Positions 34,788-42,484 of a stretch of DNA of 64,000 nt are shown here, one piece after another (the stretch's first letter is position 1; every line of letters begins with the position of its first letter). Source of the DNA: Actinomycetospora sp. TBRC 11914 (GTDB lineage Bacteria; Actinomycetota; Actinomycetes; Mycobacteriales; Pseudonocardiaceae); the NCBI RefSeq assembly GCF_012933465.1, contig NZ_JABBND010000009.1:1-64000 (forward strand). Reading direction: 5' to 3'. The position numbers and the translations under genes are program-made. Below the pieces are notes generated by a model that worked only from the letters and a program-made list of their open reading frames with translations, had not been told where the DNA came from and ran no database searches.

Positions 34788-36722
34788 GTGGGCTTGCGCG
34801 CGAAGACACGTCGTTACCGACAGATCGCGCTCGTCGTCGTCGCCGCCGCCGTGCTGCTCGGGGTCAACGTGCCGCCGGCCGTGAACTACGTCCAGGAGTG
34901 GCGCCACGAGCGGCTGATCAACAGCGCGCCGTACAAGGCCCAGTACGGCCACTGGGACACCATCGAGGTGCCGCCGGACAACCGCGTCAACTCGATCCAC
35001 GCCGCGCTGCTGACCGACGGCAAGGTCCTCCTCATCGCCGGATCCGGCAACAAGGAGGACATGTTCGCCACCAAGGCGCTCAAGAGCATGGTGTACGACC
35101 CGGCGACCGGGCAGTCGAAGATGATCCCGGTCCCCGACGACATGTTCTGCGGCGGGCAGACGGTGCTCCCCGACGGCCGCATCCTCTTCGCGGGCGGCAC
35201 GCAGCGCTACGAGAAGCTCGACGGCGCGGTGACCAACGCGGCCGGGGCGATGCGGATCAAGAACGAGAACCCGAACGCCCCGCGCGTCCTCCCGGCGGGC
35301 ACCGAGTTCACCTCGCCCACCGGCCAGAAGTACCGCTCCGACTTCGACACGACGGTGCCGCCGGCGGTGAAGACCGGGACGGGGGCGCGGACCAAGGTCA
35401 CCGCGTCCGAGGAGAAGGTCTTCGTCGAGGCCGAGCAGCCCGGCCCGCAGGCGGTCAACGGCAACCGCGACAAGTACTCCATCACCGGGCTCAGCCCCGC
35501 CGACGCGAAGAACCTCTACGGCCTCGGCGAGCCGATGACCCTGGACAAGCAGGACTACCAGGGCACGAACAAGGCCTACACGTTCGATCCCAAGACCGAG
35601 CAGTGGACCGAAGTCCCGAACATGAACCAGTCCCGCTGGTACCCGACGCTGACGCCGCTCTCGGACGGCAACGTGCTCACGGTCGCGGGCCTGGACAACG
35701 TCGGGCAGGTGATCAACGGCCAGACCGAGGAGTACGACCCGAAGGCCAACACCTGGATCGACCGCAAGGACCTCAACCAGTACTTCCCGACCTACCCGGC
35801 GCTCTTCGAGACCGAGACGCCGCACAAGATGGTCTACACCGGCGCGACCGCCGGGTACGGCCCGTCGAACCAGGGCCGCATCCCGGGTTTCTGGAACATC
35901 GACGACAACCAGTTCACGCCGATCCCCGGGCTGCGCGACCCCGAGCTCATGGAGACGGCGGGCTCGGCGTTCGTCGGCCCGGTGCAGGACCAGCGGCTGG
36001 CCGTCGTCGGCGGCGGCGGGGTCGGCGAGAGCCCGATCTCGACGGCCCGGATCGACTTCCTGAACCTCAAGGACCCGGCGCCGCACTTCACGCCGGGCCC
36101 CAACCTCGCGCAGCCGACCCGCTACCCGAACCTCGTGAACATGCCCGACGACACCACGTTCATCACGAACGGGTCGCTGGACTACCGCGGCAAGGGCGCG
36201 ACGAACAACCACCTCGCGTACACGCTGGACCCGACGACGAACCAGCTCTCGCCGATGGCCGACCCCAACATCGGCCGCGACTACCACACCGAGGCGCTGC
36301 TGCTGCCCGACGGCCGGGTCCTCGTGGCCGGGTCCGACCCCCTGTTCGACGACCAGAAGAACACGATCCCGGGCACGTTCGAGCAGCGGATCGAGATCTT
36401 CACGCCGCCGTACCTGGAGAAGGGCCTCCCCCGCCCGACGATCACCTCGGCCCCGCCGACGATGAACCGCGGCCAGACGGTCGACATCCCGACCCCGGAC
36501 GCGAACCGCATCGCCAAGGCACGCCTCATCCGGACCTCGACGGCCACCCACGTCACCACGACCGACATGCGGGACGTCGCGCTGCCGATGCAGAAGACCC
36601 CGGACGGCGTGTCGGTGACGGTGCCGCCGGAGGCCACCATCACCCCGCCCGGCCCGTACATGCTCTTCCTCGTCGACGACAAGGGCGTGCCGAGCGAGGC
36701 GAAGATCGTCGACGTCCCGTAG
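34788..36722 (+). CDS. GlxA-like copper radical oxidase (galactose oxidase fold)
   Basis: 644 aa. N-terminal basic segment and one membrane helix (QIALVVVAAAVLLGVNVPPAV), then a kelch seven-blade propeller and a C-terminal DUF1929 Ig-like domain. Copper-site signatures are visible: Cys in DDMFCGGQTVLPDGR and Tyr in SRWYPTLTPLSDGNVL (pair forming the Cys-Tyr cofactor, with adjacent Trp), and His in RDYHTEALLLPDGR and in TATHVTTTDMR. Streptomyces GlxA acts with the synthase CslA in glycan deposition at hyphal tips; no cslA is here. Start GTG 34788 or TTG 34794 (GGAGAG site favours the latter). Confidence 0.88.
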   Translation: MGLRAKTRRYRQIALVVVAAAVLLGVNVPPAVNYVQEWRHERLINSAPYKAQYGHWDTIEVPPDNRVNSIHAALLTDGKVLLIAGSGNKEDMFATKALKSMVYDPATGQSKMIPVPDDMFCGGQTVLPDGRILFAGGTQRYEKLDGAVTNAAGAMRIKNENPNAPRVLPAGTEFTSPTGQKYRSDFDTTVPPAVKTGTGARTKVTASEEKVFVEAEQPGPQAVNGNRDKYSITGLSPADAKNLYGLGEPMTLDKQDYQGTNKAYTFDPKTEQWTEVPNMNQSRWYPTLTPLSDGNVLTVAGLDNVGQVINGQTEEYDPKANTWIDRKDLNQYFPTYPALFETETPHKMVYTGATAGYGPSNQGRIPGFWNIDDNQFTPIPGLRDPELMETAGSAFVGPVQDQRLAVVGGGGVGESPISTARIDFLNLKDPAPHFTPGPNLAQPTRYPNLVNMPDDTTFITNGSLDYRGKGATNNHLAYTLDPTTNQLSPMADPNIGRDYHTEALLLPDGRVLVAGSDPLFDDQKNTIPGTFEQRIEIFTPPYLEKGLPRPTITSAPPTMNRGQTVDIPTPDANRIAKARLIRTSTATHVTTTDMRDVALPMQKTPDGVSVTVPPEATITPPGPYMLFLVDDKGVPSEAKIVDVP

Positions 36723-36731
36723 GGCCGGGCC

Positions 36732-37688
36732 GTGCCGATCGGGCCCGTGGACGGGCAGCAGGTCCCCCGGTTCGCCGGGCCGGCCACGTTCGCGCGCCTG
36801 CCCCGGCTCGACGAGGTGTCCCGGGCGGACGTCGCGATCGTCGGGCTGCCGTTCGACGCCGGCGTGAGCTACCGGCCCGGGGCGCGGTTCGGCCCGGCCC
36901 ACATCCGGGCGTCGTCGCGGCTGCTGCGGCCCTACCACCCGGCGGTCGGAGTGTCGCCGTTCGCGTCCCTGCAGGTCGCCGACGCCGGTGACCTCGCCCT
37001 CAACCCGTTCTCGATCGACGAGGCACTCGGCGCCGCCCGGGACGGGATCACCGCGCTCGCGCAGGACGGGGCCACCGTCGTCGGCCTCGGCGGCGACCAC
37101 ACCCTCGCCCTGCCGGCCCTGCGCGCCCTGGCCGCGCTCCACGGCCCGCTCGCCGTGCTGCACTTCGACGCCCACCTCGACACCTGGGACACCTACTTCG
37201 GCGCGCCCTACACGCACGGCACCCCCTTCCGCCGGGCGAGCGAGGAGGGGCTGATCGACCAGGAGCGGTCGATGCACGTCGGGATCCGCGGGCCGCTGTA
37301 CTCCGCGGCCGACCTCGACGACGACTCCCGGCTGGGCTTCGCGGTGATCCGCGCCGACGACTACGAGACCGACGGCGTCGCCCGCGCCGTGGAGCGGATG
37401 CGCCGCCGGCTCGCCGGCGGACCGGTGTACGTGTCGGTGGACATCGACGTCCTCGACCCGTCCGCCGCGCCCGGCACCGGCACCCCCGAGGCGGGCGGTC
37501 TCACGTCGCGGGAACTGCTGCACTCGCTGCGCGGACTCGCTCCGACGGGAGATCAGGCGGGCCTCGACGTCGTCGGGATCGACGTCGTCGAGGTCGCGCC
37601 CGCCTACGACCACGCCGAGATCACCGGCATCGCCGCCGCGCACGTGGTCTACGACCTGCTCGCCGTGCTGGCGGCGACCCGGGGCTGA
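36732..37688 (+). CDS. Ureohydrolase (agmatinase/guanidinobutyrase type)
   Basis: 318 aa arginase-superfamily enzyme with dinuclear manganese ligands [17 protein letters not shown] and [11 protein letters not shown]. It removes urea from a guanidino compound. The usual automatic name is agmatinase (SpeB), but the next two genes encode an amidase and an amino-acid 2-monooxygenase, which favours 4-guanidinobutyrate as substrate (inference). GTG 36732; nine bases after the GlxA-like stop, 21 bases before the nitrilase. Confidence 0.88.
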
Positions 37689-37709
37689 CACCGGAGGAGG
37701 CTGGACGGC

Positions 37710-38435
37710 ATGCGGATCGCGGTCTGGCAGGCGCGGGGTCCCGACGCCGGGTCGGTGCGGCTCGCCGACGCGGCCGCCCGGGCCGCGGCGGCCGGGGCCG
37801 ACGTCCTCGTCACCCCCGAGCTGTTCACCACCGGGTACGGCAGGCCGTTCGGCCCACCGGACCCGGGCCTCGTCGGGCGCTGGCAGGAGATCGCGGCCGA
37901 GCAGCGGATCGCGCTCGTCGCCTCGGAGCCGCACGAGGGCCGCATCACGGCCGTCGTCGTGCGCACCGACGGCACCGTCGCCGGCCGCTACGTGAAGACC
38001 CACCTCTGGGGCGACGACGAGCGCGCGGCGTTCACCCCGGGCGACGGGACGCCGCTGCTGGTGGAGCTCGCCGGCCTGCGCTGCGGGGTGGTCGTCTGCT
38101 ACGACGTCGAGTTCCCCGAGGTCGTCCGCGGCCTCGCCCTCGCCGGGGCGCAGGCGGTGCTGGTCCCCACGGCGCTCGACGACGAGGCCGTCGCGCGGGT
38201 GCTGGTGCCGGCGCGGGCGATGGAGAACCGCGTCGCGATCGCGTACGCCAACCAGGTCGGACCGGGGTTCTGCGGGGCCTCGGTGATCGTCGGCCCGGAC
38301 GGCCGGGACCTCGCCCGGGCCGGGCGCGACGCCGAGGAGCTGATCGTGGCCGACGTCGTCGCCGCTGACCTGGAGCGGGCCCGCGGGCTGGGCGACTACC
38401 TCGCGGACCGGCGGCGGGAGACCTACCGGTGGTGA
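37710..38435 (+). CDS. Nitrilase-superfamily amidohydrolase (DavA-like)
   Basis: 241 aa carbon-nitrogen hydrolase. The catalytic triad is visible: Glu in VTPELFTTGYG, Lys in GRYVKTHLWGDDE and Cys in VVVCYDVEFPEVVRGLA. Sequence texture and length match DavA (5-aminovaleramide amidase) and 4-guanidinobutyramide amidases. ATG 37710 follows GGAGGAGG. Directly followed by the flavin monooxygenase whose amide product it would hydrolyse. Confidence 0.88.
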   Translation: MRIAVWQARGPDAGSVRLADAAARAAAAGADVLVTPELFTTGYGRPFGPPDPGLVGRWQEIAAEQRIALVASEPHEGRITAVVVRTDGTVAGRYVKTHLWGDDERAAFTPGDGTPLLVELAGLRCGVVVCYDVEFPEVVRGLALAGAQAVLVPTALDDEAVARVLVPARAMENRVAIAYANQVGPGFCGASVIVGPDGRDLARAGRDAEELIVADVVAADLERARGLGDYLADRRRETYRW

Positions 38436-38442
38436 CCGACGC

Positions 38443-40116
38443 GTGGTGACCGATCCCGGGCCGTCGATGCTGGTCCCCGACTTCCCGTTCCCCTACGACA
38501 CCCACCTCGCCCACCCGGCCGGGCTCGGCGCGGTGCCCGTCGAGGCGCGCGGCACCGAGGTCGCGGTCGTCGGGGCCGGCATGGCCGGGCTCGTCGCGGC
38601 CTACGAACTGATGCGGCTCGGGCTGCGCCCCGTCGTCTACGAGGCGGGCGAGATCGGCGGCCGGCTGCGCTCGCAGGCCTTCCCGGGGACGCCCGGCGCG
38701 GTCGCCGACCTCGGGGGCATGCGCTTCCCCGCCTCCGGCCGGGCGTTCGGGCACTACCTGCGCATCCTCGACGTCCGGACCTCGCCGTTCCCCAACCCGC
38801 TCGCCCCGCAGACCCCGTCCACCGTGATCGAGCTCGGCGGACAGCCCTACTACGCGGAACGTCCCGAGGACCTGCCGCCGGTGTTCGGCGAGGTCTCGCG
38901 GGCCTGGGCGACCGCGCTCGCGGACGGCGCGGAGCTGCCCGCCCTGCGGGCGGCGGTCGCCGCCCGGTCCCCCGCGGCGATCAAGCAGATCTGGGACCGG
39001 CTCGTCCCCCGGCTCGACGACGAGAGCTTCTCGGGTTTCCTGGCCCGCTCGCCGTCGTTCGCCTCGTTCTCGCACCGCGAGCTGTTCGGCCAGGTCGGTT
39101 TCGGGACCGGCGGCTGGGACACCGACTTCCCGAACTCGATGCTGGAGATCCTGCGCGTCGTGGCCACCGACGCCGACGACCAGCACGTCCGCATCCACGG
39201 CGGCGCGCAGTCGGTGCCGCTGGGGCTGTGGCGGCGGGCGCCGTCGTCGCTGGTGGGGTGGACGCCCGGCGCGTCGCTGGAGTCGCTGCACGGCGGCTCA
39301 CCGCGGCCGGCGGTCCGGGCGTTGCGGCGCCTCGACGACGGTCGGATCGGGGTCCTCGACCGCTGGGGCACGGAGCGGCCGTACGCCGCGGTGATCTCGA
39401 CGGTGCAGTCGTGGCTGCTCTCGGCCGGGATCGACACCGACGAGTCGCTGTTCAGCCAGGACCTGTGGCGGGCGCTCGAGCGGTCGCACTACATGCAGAG
39501 CTCGAAGACGTTCGTGCTGGTGGACCGGCCGTTCTGGCGCGACCGCGACCCGGCGTCGGGCCGCCACGTCATGTCGACGACCCTCACCGACCGCATGACC
39601 CGCGGCACCTACCTGCTCGACGGCGGGGGCGGGCTCACCGACCCGGACGCGGCGACGCGGCCCGCGGTGCTGTGCCTGAGCTACACCTGGAACGACGACG
39701 CCCTCAAGTGGCTCGCGCTGCCCACCGACGAGCGGGTGCGGCTGATGCTGCACTCGCTGCGCCAGATCTACCCCGACCTCGACGTCGCCTCGCACATCCT
39801 CGGCGAGCCGATCACGATCTCGTGGGAGCGCGAGCCGCACTTCATGGGGGCGTTCCGCGGCAACCTGCCCGGGCACTACCGCTACCAGCGGCGGATGTTC
39901 ACCCACTTCGTGCAGGACGCCTTCCCGCCCGAGCACCGCGGCCTGTTCCTGGCCGGCGACGACATCTCGTTCACCCCCGGGTGGGCCGAGGGCGCGGTGC
40001 ACACGGCCCTGAACGCGGTGTGGGGGGTGGTGCACCAGCTCGGCGGCCGCTCGGCGCCGGGCAACCCGGGGCCCGGGGACCGGTTCGCCGAGCTGGCGCC
40101 GGTGGAACTGACGTGA
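38443..40116 (+). CDS. Flavin amino-acid 2-monooxygenase (DavB/arginine 2-monooxygenase-like)
   Basis: 557 aa FAD amine-oxidase fold. Dinucleotide motif VAVVGAGMAGLVAAYELM (about 34-51), then the family hallmarks GGRLRSQAFPG, DLGGMRFPASGRAF with the substrate-carboxylate Arg, FGQVGFGTGGWDTDFPNSM, and AGDDISFTPGWAEGAV. The sequence closely resembles Pseudomonas DavB (lysine 2-monooxygenase), which oxidatively decarboxylates an amino acid to an amide. With a DavA-like amidase and a ureohydrolase upstream, arginine is the likelier substrate here; lysine remains possible. GTG 38443 or 38446. Confidence 0.9.
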   Translation: MVTDPGPSMLVPDFPFPYDTHLAHPAGLGAVPVEARGTEVAVVGAGMAGLVAAYELMRLGLRPVVYEAGEIGGRLRSQAFPGTPGAVADLGGMRFPASGRAFGHYLRILDVRTSPFPNPLAPQTPSTVIELGGQPYYAERPEDLPPVFGEVSRAWATALADGAELPALRAAVAARSPAAIKQIWDRLVPRLDDESFSGFLARSPSFASFSHRELFGQVGFGTGGWDTDFPNSMLEILRVVATDADDQHVRIHGGAQSVPLGLWRRAPSSLVGWTPGASLESLHGGSPRPAVRALRRLDDGRIGVLDRWGTERPYAAVISTVQSWLLSAGIDTDESLFSQDLWRALERSHYMQSSKTFVLVDRPFWRDRDPASGRHVMSTTLTDRMTRGTYLLDGGGGLTDPDAATRPAVLCLSYTWNDDALKWLALPTDERVRLMLHSLRQIYPDLDVASHILGEPITISWEREPHFMGAFRGNLPGHYRYQRRMFTHFVQDAFPPEHRGLFLAGDDISFTPGWAEGAVHTALNAVWGVVHQLGGRSAPGNPGPGDRFAELAPVELT

Positions 40117-40199
40117 CCGCTGCGGATCTCGCGGACCGTGTCGCGCTGCACGAGCTGGTGTCCCGGCACAGCAGGGATGGCGCATCCGGCGTCGGGTGA
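40113..40199 (+). pseudogene. Truncated NTF2/SnoaL-like gene start
   Basis: GTG 40113 overlaps the monooxygenase stop (GTGA), the coupling mode used throughout the window, and encodes TAADLADRVALHELVSRHS before diverging and stopping after 28 codons. The segment looks like the first helix of a SnoaL/NTF2-like protein. The rest is missing, and the SOS-controlled 13E12-type gene begins 135 bases on. Interpretation as a gene broken by insertion or deletion is inference from a very short match. Confidence 0.4.
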
Positions 40200-40314
40200 T
40201 CCGGCGTCGGCGGCGGCTGCTGGAGCGGTAGCGGCGCGTGCGGGGCATCGTGATCGGATCGTGATCATCTGGCTCGCGTCGAGCTGGGCGGGTGGCGCTG
40301 TGACTGTCAGACCC

Positions 40315-40330
40315 TCGAACTAGTGTTCGA
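40315..40330. promoter_or_regulatory. LexA SOS box upstream of the DUF222/HNH gene
   Basis: TCGAACTAGTGTTCGA is a perfect 16-base palindrome and an exact match to the actinobacterial LexA consensus TCGAAC-N4-GTTCGA. It ends three bases before the ATG. The internal TAGTGT (40321-40326) is a good -10 seven bases from the ATG, so LexA would cover the promoter of a leaderless transcript. Confidence 0.88.
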
Positions 40331-40333
40331 TCC

Positions 40334-42484
40334 ATGACGGTGGCGGTGAGCTGGCAAGCCGAGCCCGACGAGGAACCCCTCGCCGAGGTCGTCGAGCTGC
40401 CCTGCCCCGACGTCGAGCACCTGCACGACCCCGCGGAGCTGCCCCCACCGGCGCTGCTGCTGGCCGCCGACCCCGTGGAGCTGCCCGGCCAGTGGGTCGA
40501 CGCCGGGATGAGCGCCTGGTTCGCCCACACGAACCGGACCACCCTGGCTCTCGCCCGCTGGATGCTGGAGACCAGCCGGGCCCAGGCCGGCACCCGCGAA
40601 CGTGTCCACGGCCGTCGCCGCGCCGGGAAGATCGTCGCCGCCTCCCTGGGCTGGTCGGAGGCCTACGCGGCGCAACGCATCGAGTTCGCCCGCCAGGTCC
40701 TCGAACGCCTCCCCGCCCTCGGCGAGGCCATGGCCGACGGCCGGCTCGAGGAGCGCAAGGCCGGGCTGTTCACCAGCGCCCTCGCCGATCTCGACACAGC
40801 CCAGGCCCGCACCGTCGTCGAGCGGGTGCTGCCCGACGCGCCCCGGCTGCCCTTCGGGGTGCTGCGCGCCCGCATCGAGGCCGCCGCGGAAGCCGTCGAC
40901 TCCGACTGGGCCGCCGCCTGGCGCGCTGCGGCCATCGCCCGCCGGCGCGTCACCTTCCGCGTCGCCCCGTCCGGAGCTGCCGAGCTGTGCGGGCTGGACC
41001 TGCCCGAGGAACCCGCCCAGGACGCGCACGACCGCATCGTCGCCCTCGCCCGCGCCGTGGCCCGCCGACTGCGTGCCGCCGGAGCGGACGCCCCCATCGG
41101 GCCGATCCGCTCCGAGGTCATGCTCACCCTCACCGGCCCCGACGGCGCGGGTATGTGGGACGCCGACGTCGTCGAGCACGTGGTGTCGCGCTTCGGCGAC
41201 GACAGCGACGGCGGCGCCGACCCTGACGACCCCGACGACGGGCCGGACGACGAGGGACCCGACGACGAGGGACCCGACGACGAGGGACCCGACGACGAGG
41301 GACCCGACGACGAGGGACCCGATGACGAGGGACCCGATGGCGGGCCTGAAGACGACAGGGCCCGGGACGACGAGCCCGACACCGACGAGCCCGACGACCT
41401 CGGGTCCCGCGAGAGACCGTCGCAGGCGTCCGGCCCAGACGACGCCGCACGGGAGAAGCAGCCGACGCCCTGGCGGGTGCCGTTCGTCCCGCGGGTCGCG
41501 CTGCGGGTCGGCCTGGCCACGGTGCTCGGCCTCGACCGGCGCCCGGGCCACCTCCCCGGACGCGGCCCGGTCACCAACCAGGTCGCGATCTCCATGGCCT
41601 GGAACCGCCCCCACAGCACCTTCCGGCTGCTGCTCTACGACCCCGACGGCGCCCTCGACCACGTCCTCACCGTCCGCCCACCGCGGAACGGTCCGCCGCC
41701 CCCGCACGCCGCGCAGCGGCGCCACCACGTCGTCGAGCTCACCGCCTACACCCACGAGCTCGACGCCCCCACCGCCGCGCTCGCCGACCCGACCCGTGGC
41801 GAGCTGCCGGGGCCGACCCCGCGCGACGCCCTGGTACCCGGCGACGCCCTGACCCTGCTCGAGCGGGCCGGCCGCGCGCTGAAGCGTGCGCGGGCACGTC
41901 CGCCGGAGGAGCACCCTGCCCGCACCGAAGCCGAGGTCGGCAACCGCTTCCCGAGCGCCGAGCTGCGGGCCTGGATTCAGGCCCGCGACCGCACCTGCCG
42001 CCACGTGGCCTGCACCGCCGACGCGATCGGCTGCGACGTCGACCACACGGTGGCCGTCGTCGACGACGGCCGCACCGAAGCCGGTGACCTCGGTCCGTTC
42101 TGCCGCCGCGACCACGCGTTCAAGCACGATCCCGACAGCGGCTGGACCGTCCGGCAACCCAGGCCCGGTCGCTTCGAATGGACCTCGCCGACCGGCCGGC
42201 TGCACATCAAGGAGCCCGAGCCGTACGACCCGCTGCCCGATCCCGTCCCGCGCACCGACCCTGACCACCACTACCTGCTCGGCCTCACCAGCGAGCCGCC
42301 GCCGCCCGCCCCGCCGCCGGGCAGCCCCCGCCGCAACAAGCACGGCTTCCTCACCCGAGCCGCCCTCGACACCGCGGCACATCTACGCCGGCGCGCCCGC
42401 GAGCAGCCCCGGCCCGCCACCGAGACCGAGACCGAGACCGACCCGAACCCGGATGAGCGCTTTCCCGAGGAGCCGCCCTTCTAG
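40334..42484 (+). CDS. DUF222/HNH endonuclease protein (13E12 repeat family)
   Basis: 716 aa. Helical DUF222 domain in the first about 270 residues (LARWMLETSRAQAGT.., GWSEAYAAQRIEFARQVLERLPALGEAMADGRL), an acidic spacer holding six DDEGP repeats (about 305-334), a second conserved part, then an HNH nuclease (about 545-590) with CRHVAC, CDVDHTV and LGPFCRRDHAFKH. This is the family of mycobacterial REP13E12 proteins, multi-copy and thought to be mobile; biochemical function is not established. A perfect SOS box lies at the start codon. No Shine-Dalgarno is present, fitting a leaderless mRNA. Longer than typical members, mainly from the spacer. Confidence 0.92.
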   Translation: MTVAVSWQAEPDEEPLAEVVELPCPDVEHLHDPAELPPPALLLAADPVELPGQWVDAGMSAWFAHTNRTTLALARWMLETSRAQAGTRERVHGRRRAGKIVAASLGWSEAYAAQRIEFARQVLERLPALGEAMADGRLEERKAGLFTSALADLDTAQARTVVERVLPDAPRLPFGVLRARIEAAAEAVDSDWAAAWRAAAIARRRVTFRVAPSGAAELCGLDLPEEPAQDAHDRIVALARAVARRLRAAGADAPIGPIRSEVMLTLTGPDGAGMWDADVVEHVVSRFGDDSDGGADPDDPDDGPDDEGPDDEGPDDEGPDDEGPDDEGPDDEGPDGGPEDDRARDDEPDTDEPDDLGSRERPSQASGPDDAAREKQPTPWRVPFVPRVALRVGLATVLGLDRRPGHLPGRGPVTNQVAISMAWNRPHSTFRLLLYDPDGALDHVLTVRPPRNGPPPPHAAQRRHHVVELTAYTHELDAPTAALADPTRGELPGPTPRDALVPGDALTLLERAGRALKRARARPPEEHPARTEAEVGNRFPSAELRAWIQARDRTCRHVACTADAIGCDVDHTVAVVDDGRTEAGDLGPFCRRDHAFKHDPDSGWTVRQPRPGRFEWTSPTGRLHIKEPEPYDPLPDPVPRTDPDHHYLLGLTSEPPPPAPPPGSPRRNKHGFLTRAALDTAAHLRRRAREQPRPATETETETDPNPDERFPEEPPF
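41246..41335 (+). repeat. Six tandem 15-bp coding repeats
   Basis: GACGACGAGGGACCC is repeated six times without spacer (the last copy has GAT for GAC), coding (DDEGP)6 in the acidic linker of the DUF222/HNH protein. The near-identity of copies implies recent slippage expansion. Confidence 0.95.

Follow-up and report, generated by a model that had tools for sequence, protein, structure and literature searches.

The DavB/DavA pathway converts lysine to 5-aminovalerate and relies on a 2-monooxygenase encoded beside a nitrilase-type amidase. A solved enzyme of this kind, L-AAO/MOG of Pseudomonas sp. AIU 813 (L-lysine oxidase/2-monooxygenase; 3WE0, 5YB6-8), is described in PMC5832979 as turning over arginine and ornithine as well, with wild-type monooxygenase kcat/Km values of 200 (ornithine), 74 (lysine) and 24 (arginine) per s per mM. 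For arginine, a route to 4-aminobutyrate (GABA) was first described from detected products in Streptomyces griseus (van Thoai et al. 1966, cited in PMC2242806), and PMC2242806 calls the first enzyme uncharacterised. Arginine monooxygenase and 4-guanidinobutyramide hydrolase are also reported to supply the starter of marginolactone polyketides (PMC5082578, PMC4737276). Here we describe a three-gene locus within the first 64,000 nucleotides of contig NZ_JABBND010000009.1 of Actinomycetospora sp. TBRC 11914 (hereafter the window). It encodes a ureohydrolase, a nitrilase-superfamily amidase and an FAD-dependent amino-acid oxidase/monooxygenase (hereafter the flavoenzyme), which very probably constitute a catabolic arginine monooxygenase operon leading from arginine to GABA and urea.

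In the proposed route, the flavoenzyme would convert L-arginine and O2 to 4-guanidinobutyramide by oxidative decarboxylation, the amidase would hydrolyze this amide to 4-guanidinobutyrate and ammonia, and the ureohydrolase would split the latter into GABA and urea, all three being expressed from one transcript; the urea could be used by the urease of the same genome. As in S. griseus, arginine would end as 4-aminobutyrate. The two opening reactions would be those of azalomycin starter supply in Streptomyces, where a CoA ester of the acid is formed for polyketide synthesis (PMC5082578), whereas in the window the ureohydrolase comes next. The original prediction had read the same route from the three genes, by extension of DavB/DavA. 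Residues, tree, neighbourhood, empty-site comparison and decarboxylase searches argue for it; it is not new, however, as work on azalomycin supply has already described both the pathway and the enzymes of its two opening steps (PMC5082578). The main contribution of the present analysis lies in residues and gene neighbourhoods that speak for a distinct arginine branch among the flavoenzymes. Among open-access titles and abstracts, none described the three-gene operon or the residue pattern. PMC13270027, on soil genomes, mentions an arginine monooxygenase together with an aliphatic amidase, whereas PMC6297676 and PMC10224408 proved irrelevant to the locus.

Active-Site Residues and Phylogeny of the Flavoenzyme

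Among solved structures, the closest relative of the window flavoenzyme is L-AAO/MOG (3WE0, 744 bits), followed by tryptophan 2-monooxygenase (190 bits); homology to L-AAO/MOG extends over the full length. An active-site comparison, suggested together with the original prediction, finds Arg102, Trp235, Asp238, Tyr416, Trp418, Phe473 and Trp516 of L-AAO/MOG retained, and Cys254, Gln258 and Ala515 replaced by Ala, His and Gly. The window enzyme thereby possesses, in an L-AAO/MOG-type sequence, the acidic residue for a basic side chain: Asp238 is described as contacting the charged end of lysine, ornithine and arginine in L-AAO/MOG (PMC5832979). The same source links the wider pockets of the tryptophan and phenylalanine enzymes to Ala515→Gly and Trp235→Phe, and names Cys254 as the key residue in the oxidase/monooxygenase switch. 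We propose that Cys254, Gln258 and Ala515 may define the lysine 2-monooxygenase family, a suggestion of the present analysis based on sequence comparison.

Relatives of the flavoenzyme were collected from genome searches, with matches in 9/61, 65/297 and 16/396 genomes of overlapping sets, and from a scan of named genomes, from which the best 80 of 586 loci were used, biasing the sample toward close relatives; fetched regions were added. Removal of 26 duplicates and setting aside of loci L001–L003 left 160 distinct flavoenzymes, including that of the window. Arginine oxygenase activity has been reported from Arthrobacter and Brevibacterium, and the many Arthrobacter sequences in the sample would fit the activity in that genus.

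At positions 254/258/515/516, 97 of the 160 flavoenzymes carry Ala/His/Gly/Trp, as in the window (window-type). Another 24 carry Cys/Gln/Ala/Trp (lysine-type); the Pseudomonas sequences are among these, and they group with 3WE0. The pattern ends in Gly515/Phe516 in 33, while the other six are Cys/Gln/Gly/Trp (two), Phe/Gln/Gly/Trp (one), Leu/Gln/Ala/Trp (one) and two distant sequences. On a tree of the 160 sequences and 3WE0, built with FastTree only, a 29-sequence side (support 98) comprises the 24 lysine-type sequences, 3WE0 and four others, with no window-type sequence among them; the window flavoenzyme lies outside this side, apart from the lysine enzymes. The 33 Gly515/Phe516 sequences and 49 window-type ones form an 82-sequence group (support 100), and the window enzyme belongs to an adjoining group of 43 (support 82), beside its own genus and Kineococcus (7 sequences, support 100). 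With agreement of at least 90% required within each group, 22 positions separate window-type from lysine-type sequences. The window enzyme has the window-type letter at 18 of them, where it differs from L-AAO/MOG (the three substitutions above included), and the letter of the other group at 4 (56, 268, 487 and 514).

These data bear on a rival explanation, which casts the flavoenzyme as a DavB-like 2-monooxygenase of lysine (or of lysine and ornithine) and the ureohydrolase as an unrelated neighbour. It can draw on the 58–59% identity of the window enzyme to the Pseudomonas lysine-type sequences, on the conserved Asp238, and on the higher monooxygenase kcat/Km reported for L-AAO/MOG with ornithine and lysine than with arginine (PMC5832979). 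However, the window enzyme stands on the other side of the tree, and positions 254, 258 and 515, by which the groups are themselves defined, are fixed differently (97/97 vs 24/24); positions 206, 237, 356, 359, 420 and further ones separate the groups equally fully. Together with the neighbourhood counts given below, this makes a lysine enzyme quite unlikely in our judgement, although lysine or ornithine may be further substrates of an arginine 2-monooxygenase.

The flavoenzyme and ureohydrolase of Kineococcus (L050) are both 79% identical to their window counterparts, more than the 60–64% identity of the flavoenzymes from other genera in the window's family, which suggests horizontal transfer.

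A Polyketide-Associated Branch

The Gly515/Phe516 group provides a further link to arginine. Within 7 kb flanks, a ketosynthase motif is found near 21/30 of its members, as opposed to 1/59 window-type, 0/20 lysine-type and 0/5 other sequences; the corresponding counts for an AMP-binding motif are 17/30, 0/59, 1/20 and 1/5. Such ketosynthase enrichment is expected for arginine-derived polyketide starters and supports the arginine reading, and the group is taken here to be the branch supplying these starters. An arginine oxidase gene used as a probe is described as having found six marginolactone clusters. The 64 kb window itself contains no ketosynthase motif. The Gly515/Phe516 sequences fall among our loci L129–L166; their Phe516 occupies a position of the aromatic cage.

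Gene Neighbours Across the Family

A ureohydrolase gene lies within 3 kb of 14/97 window-type flavoenzymes and of none of the 24 lysine-type ones, a difference that counts against the lysine explanation. It is also found near 1/33 Gly515/Phe516 sequences (36% identity, opposite strand) and 1/6 others (opposite strand). Among loci with both 3 kb flanks, the counts are 7/67, 0/20, 1/31 and 1/5, respectively. Within 5 kb, a ureohydrolase is present in 17/127 loci (only those with a match or with 4.5 kb flanks; 33/160 dropped), a distribution that takes a minimum of 7 changes on the tree. The 17 flavoenzymes concerned all carry Gly515, as opposed to 0/20 Ala515 loci having such a neighbour, and 15 of them are window-type with the ureohydrolase on the same strand.

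The arrangement varies. The ureohydrolase lies upstream of the amidase in Actinomycetospora, immediately upstream of the flavoenzyme in Kineococcus and Geminicoccus, and immediately downstream of it in Haloechinothrix, Kocuria palustris and a metagenome-assembled genome labelled Actinophytocola; more distant ones are found 2.1 kb downstream (L170) and 4.4 kb upstream (Palleronia) of the flavoenzyme. The amidase is directly downstream in 21/24 lysine-type loci, as for L-AAO/MOG, and upstream in the window. Relative to DavB/DavA, the window thus has the amidase on the opposite side, a different residue pattern and an additional ureohydrolase. An APC-family amino-acid permease resembling that of the Kocuria locus occurs within 9 kb of 46/62 window-type flavoenzymes, and of 0/20 lysine-type, 0/31 Gly515/Phe516 and 0/5 other ones (5 kb flanks). 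The Kocuria permease is under all curated cut-offs (branched-chain transporter, 497/690; amino acid transporter, 478/557; cationic permease, 306/682 bits).

Several loci carry genes for neighbouring steps. In Palleronia pontilimi (L087), the order is ureohydrolase, an open reading frame (ORF) without NCBIfam match, 5-guanidino-2-oxopentanoate (2-ketoarginine) decarboxylase (720 vs 500 bits), and amidase plus flavoenzyme. The last two are spanned by a single open frame of 834 aa (L087:6419-8923), the only such case among 72 loci with a same-strand upstream amidase; it may represent a natural fusion, a stop lost in assembly, or a frame with an internal start. Geminicoccus (L083) has ureohydrolase, flavoenzyme and GABA transaminase (TIGR00700, 562 vs 507 bits) in this order. 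Locus L170 includes a relative of succinate-semialdehyde dehydrogenase (SSADH; 595 vs cut-off 646), the end of a GABA transaminase gene and a weaker 2-ketoarginine decarboxylase relative (342 vs 500 bits). Further GABA transaminase relatives are found at the Kocuria locus (48%) and at one further window-type and one Gly515/Phe516 locus (32–47%). These neighbours connect the surroundings of the flavoenzyme with guanidino acids and GABA, with GABA transaminase relatives not exclusive to the window type.

The decarboxylase genes of Palleronia and L170 would fit another scheme, in which the flavoenzyme acts mainly as an oxidase producing 2-ketoarginine, which is then decarboxylated and oxidised to 4-guanidinobutyrate, leaving the amidase to process the monooxygenase share. 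L-AAO/MOG is reported to catalyze both reactions (PMC5832979), and Cys254, tied to the balance between them, is replaced by Ala in the window. However, visual inspection of the ORFs flanking the window operon revealed no 2-ketoarginine decarboxylase, the rest of the genome not having been searched, and the presence of an amidase within the block points to amide production. We consider a mainly oxidative enzyme unlikely, though less so than any other alternative, and favour arginine 2-monooxygenase activity.

Ureohydrolase, Amidase and Points Against the Proposed Route

The window ureohydrolase keeps the binuclear metal ligands (positions 129, 152, 154, 156 and 243). Its best-scoring solved structure is the guanidinobutyrase GbuA of Pseudomonas aeruginosa (3NIO, 268 bits), for which the same reaction is proposed here, followed by GpuA (250), PAH (240) and the agmatinases 4dz4 (195) and 7lol (173 bits), the last of which we take to be the E. 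coli enzyme. Arg72 of GbuA is kept in the window protein and in 12/14 aligned ureohydrolases, the exceptions being one cut by the locus end and the opposite-strand L147, which has Glu. Among references, this position holds Arg in GpuA, His in PAH, and Ala and Trp in the two agmatinases. According to PMC9772407, Arg72 extends to the adjacent active site and caps the substrate carboxylate there.

As the original prediction anticipated, routine annotation would call this protein an agmatinase: it passes the TIGR01230 cut-off (211 vs 174.3 bits), even though solved agmatinases are not its best match. One could accordingly regard it as a true agmatinase that shares an operon with an amidase and an amino-acid oxidase by chance, and the 42% identity to two agmatinases, vs 44% to GbuA, is in keeping with this. 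Against it stand the higher scores of GbuA, GpuA and PAH, the retained Arg72, and the human enzyme AGMAT, likewise annotated, which is reported to hydrolyze guanidino acids and not agmatine (PMC9772407). The absence of an agmatine-making decarboxylase, first noted for the vicinity, extends to the whole genome for the two arginine decarboxylase families searched (PF01276, 0 matches; TIGR01273, 54 and 26 vs 624 bits). Chance linkage to an agmatinase is thus very hard to credit, and we retain 4-guanidinobutyrase as the predicted function.

The amidase keeps Glu (PELF), Lys (VKTHL) and Cys (VCYDVEFPE) in the alignment with its relatives, presumably the catalytic triad. It is 38–43% identical to the amidases adjoining Pseudomonas lysine-type flavoenzymes; 'DavA-like', as it was originally called, is a fair label for it, albeit a loose one.

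Several observations weigh against the route to GABA. The identities of the ureohydrolase to GbuA (44%), GpuA (44%) and PAH (45%) compare with 42% to each of the two agmatinases. On a 20-sequence tree, where window-kind and GbuA-kind ureohydrolases separate, its branch falls without resolution between GbuA/GpuA and the agmatinases. At the specificity position of GbuA Met161 it has Tyr, the residue described for 3-guanidinopropionase (Tyr157 of GpuA; PMC10833137). The guanidinobutyrase of A. niger is also reported to have Tyr there and to prefer 4-guanidinobutyrate 25–30-fold (PMC10833137). Across the partners of our flavoenzymes, this position holds Tyr in nine actinobacterial proteins, Met in three of the GbuA kind and Ile in L147. 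The Tyr could indicate another guanidino amino acid as the substrate of the pathway, e.g., norarginine or canavanine. However, arginine is the common guanidino amino acid, and the GbuA-kind partners near three relatives (Geminicoccus, 70%; Palleronia, 70%; L183, 71% identity to GbuA) fit 4-guanidinobutyrate. Another substrate of this type appears highly improbable, and arginine remains the one we propose.

Others of these points concern the flavoenzyme, whose arginine assignment is anchored indirectly, via neighbours and polyketide context. No ureohydrolase lies within 3 kb in 83/97 window-type loci, or in 60/67 with both 3 kb flanks; no amidase was found within the 10 kb contig of Kineococcus, which is the closest relative from another genus; and GABA transaminase relatives (32–47%) also occur near two lysine-type loci. 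A close ureohydrolase (E ≤ 1e-100) is encoded in 29/29 genomes with a typed window-type flavoenzyme (three untyped genomes, G161, G216 and G236, left out), and also in 88/265 of the others in the family, including 4/6 with the lysine type. As 18 of the 29 come from one genus, where three members without a flavoenzyme match (G279, G290 and G318) have the ureohydrolase too, the small p-value of this co-occurrence was rejected as independent evidence. In the Actinomycetospora genome itself, no protein passes the TIGR00700 cut-off, the best match looking by eye like argD, located between argB and argF, and a dedicated GABA transaminase was rejected on this basis; the best SSADH match (TIGR01780) reaches 576 vs a cut-off of 646 bits. 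Urease alpha is over its cut-off.

Genomic Context and Gain or Loss as a Block

The source assembly is a draft genome of 6.5 Mb in 63 contigs, 97% complete. ORFs and Pfam families bear out the original description of three adjacent, tightly spaced genes (Table 1). A simple scan of 36400–40500 returned 0 promoter-like and 0 terminator-like sites (expected 0.1 and 0.4), which says little.

Table 1. Coordinates of the three-gene locus and the preceding gene in the window
Feature	Position	Strand	Details
glxA, radical copper oxidase	34800-36722	+	NF052501, 969.7 bits vs cut-off 800; ends 9 bp before ureohydrolase
Ureohydrolase, proposed 4-guanidinobutyrase	36732-37688	+	318 aa, GTG start; Arginase PF00491, 2e-91
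Ureohydrolase–amidase gap, 21 bp	37689-37709	+	ribosome-binding-like GGAGG ahead of amidase ATG
Nitrilase-superfamily amidase, proposed 4-guanidinobutyramide hydrolase	37710-38435	+	241 aa; CN_hydrolase PF00795, 1.1e-34
FAD amino-acid oxidase/monooxygenase, proposed arginine 2-monooxygenase	38443-40116	+	557 aa, GTG start; Amino_oxidase PF01593, 6.4e-46; 7 bp after amidase

The closest named relative of the host, Actinomycetospora chiangmaiensis (L049), carries the same three genes, with identities of 90% (ureohydrolase), 75% (amidase) and 91% (flavoenzyme), and because the set recurs there it is not a product of chance. In the genus, the flavoenzyme is found in 6/18 genomes; a ureohydrolase with E < 1e-100 is present in all six of these and in 0/12 of the others, three of which are less than 85% complete. 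An empty-site comparison covered five fetched genomes and A. chiangmaiensis. The three genes directly follow glxA in the window, A. chiangmaiensis and G012. In four genomes, glxA lacks them and is followed by a LysR regulator and a short-chain dehydrogenase/reductase (SDR) gene (G016, G011) or by leuC (G003, G005). The LysR/SDR pair is present in A. chiangmaiensis, G012, G016 and G011, and is missing from the window, which has a 716-aa ORF at that place. The three genes look like a block gained or lost as one, and the comparison ruled out glxA or the LysR/SDR pair as part of the unit. We regard glxA as a fixed neighbour; relatives of it occur in 17/18 genomes of the genus.

The 716-aa ORF (40334–42484) has no NCBIfam match at 1e-10; by eye it resembles what we take to be a DUF222/HNH protein. 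Between it and the operon, a short open stretch of 28 codons (40113–40200), with a GTG overlapping the flavoenzyme end, resembles the beginning of a gene that has been lost. A second PF00491 protein of 416 aa is encoded elsewhere in the genome (G000:C22:33159-33980; L190:1450-2700, minus strand), about 22 kb from ureC. Its nearest structures, far above other ureohydrolases, are the 'agmatinase 2' entries 9fek and 7esr/7oi1 (678 and 545 bits), presumably guanidine hydrolases.

Significance for the Family

Beyond this locus, we find it reasonably likely that Ala254/His258/Gly515/Trp516 marks a dedicated and widespread family of catabolic arginine 2-monooxygenases, represented among others in Arthrobacter, Streptomyces and Amycolatopsis, which would put genes to an arginine-to-GABA route that has long been known. 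This family would be told apart from the lysine enzymes and from the Gly515/Phe516 polyketide branch by a short residue pattern. Guanidinobutyrases of two kinds would have joined it on several occasions, with a possible amidase–monooxygenase fusion in Palleronia. Relatives of the flavoenzyme turned up in 11 plasmid records; ten of these give them only the label NAD(P)/FAD-dependent oxidoreductase, and the eleventh has no annotation. The Gly515/Phe516 pattern could serve as a handle to find arginine-started polyketide clusters. If the assignment is true, a route from arginine to GABA and urea could be assigned in many actinobacteria. A small set of residues would then offer a testable rule, of possible use in annotation, to tell arginine from lysine enzymes in a family employed for the production of 5-aminovalerate and amides.

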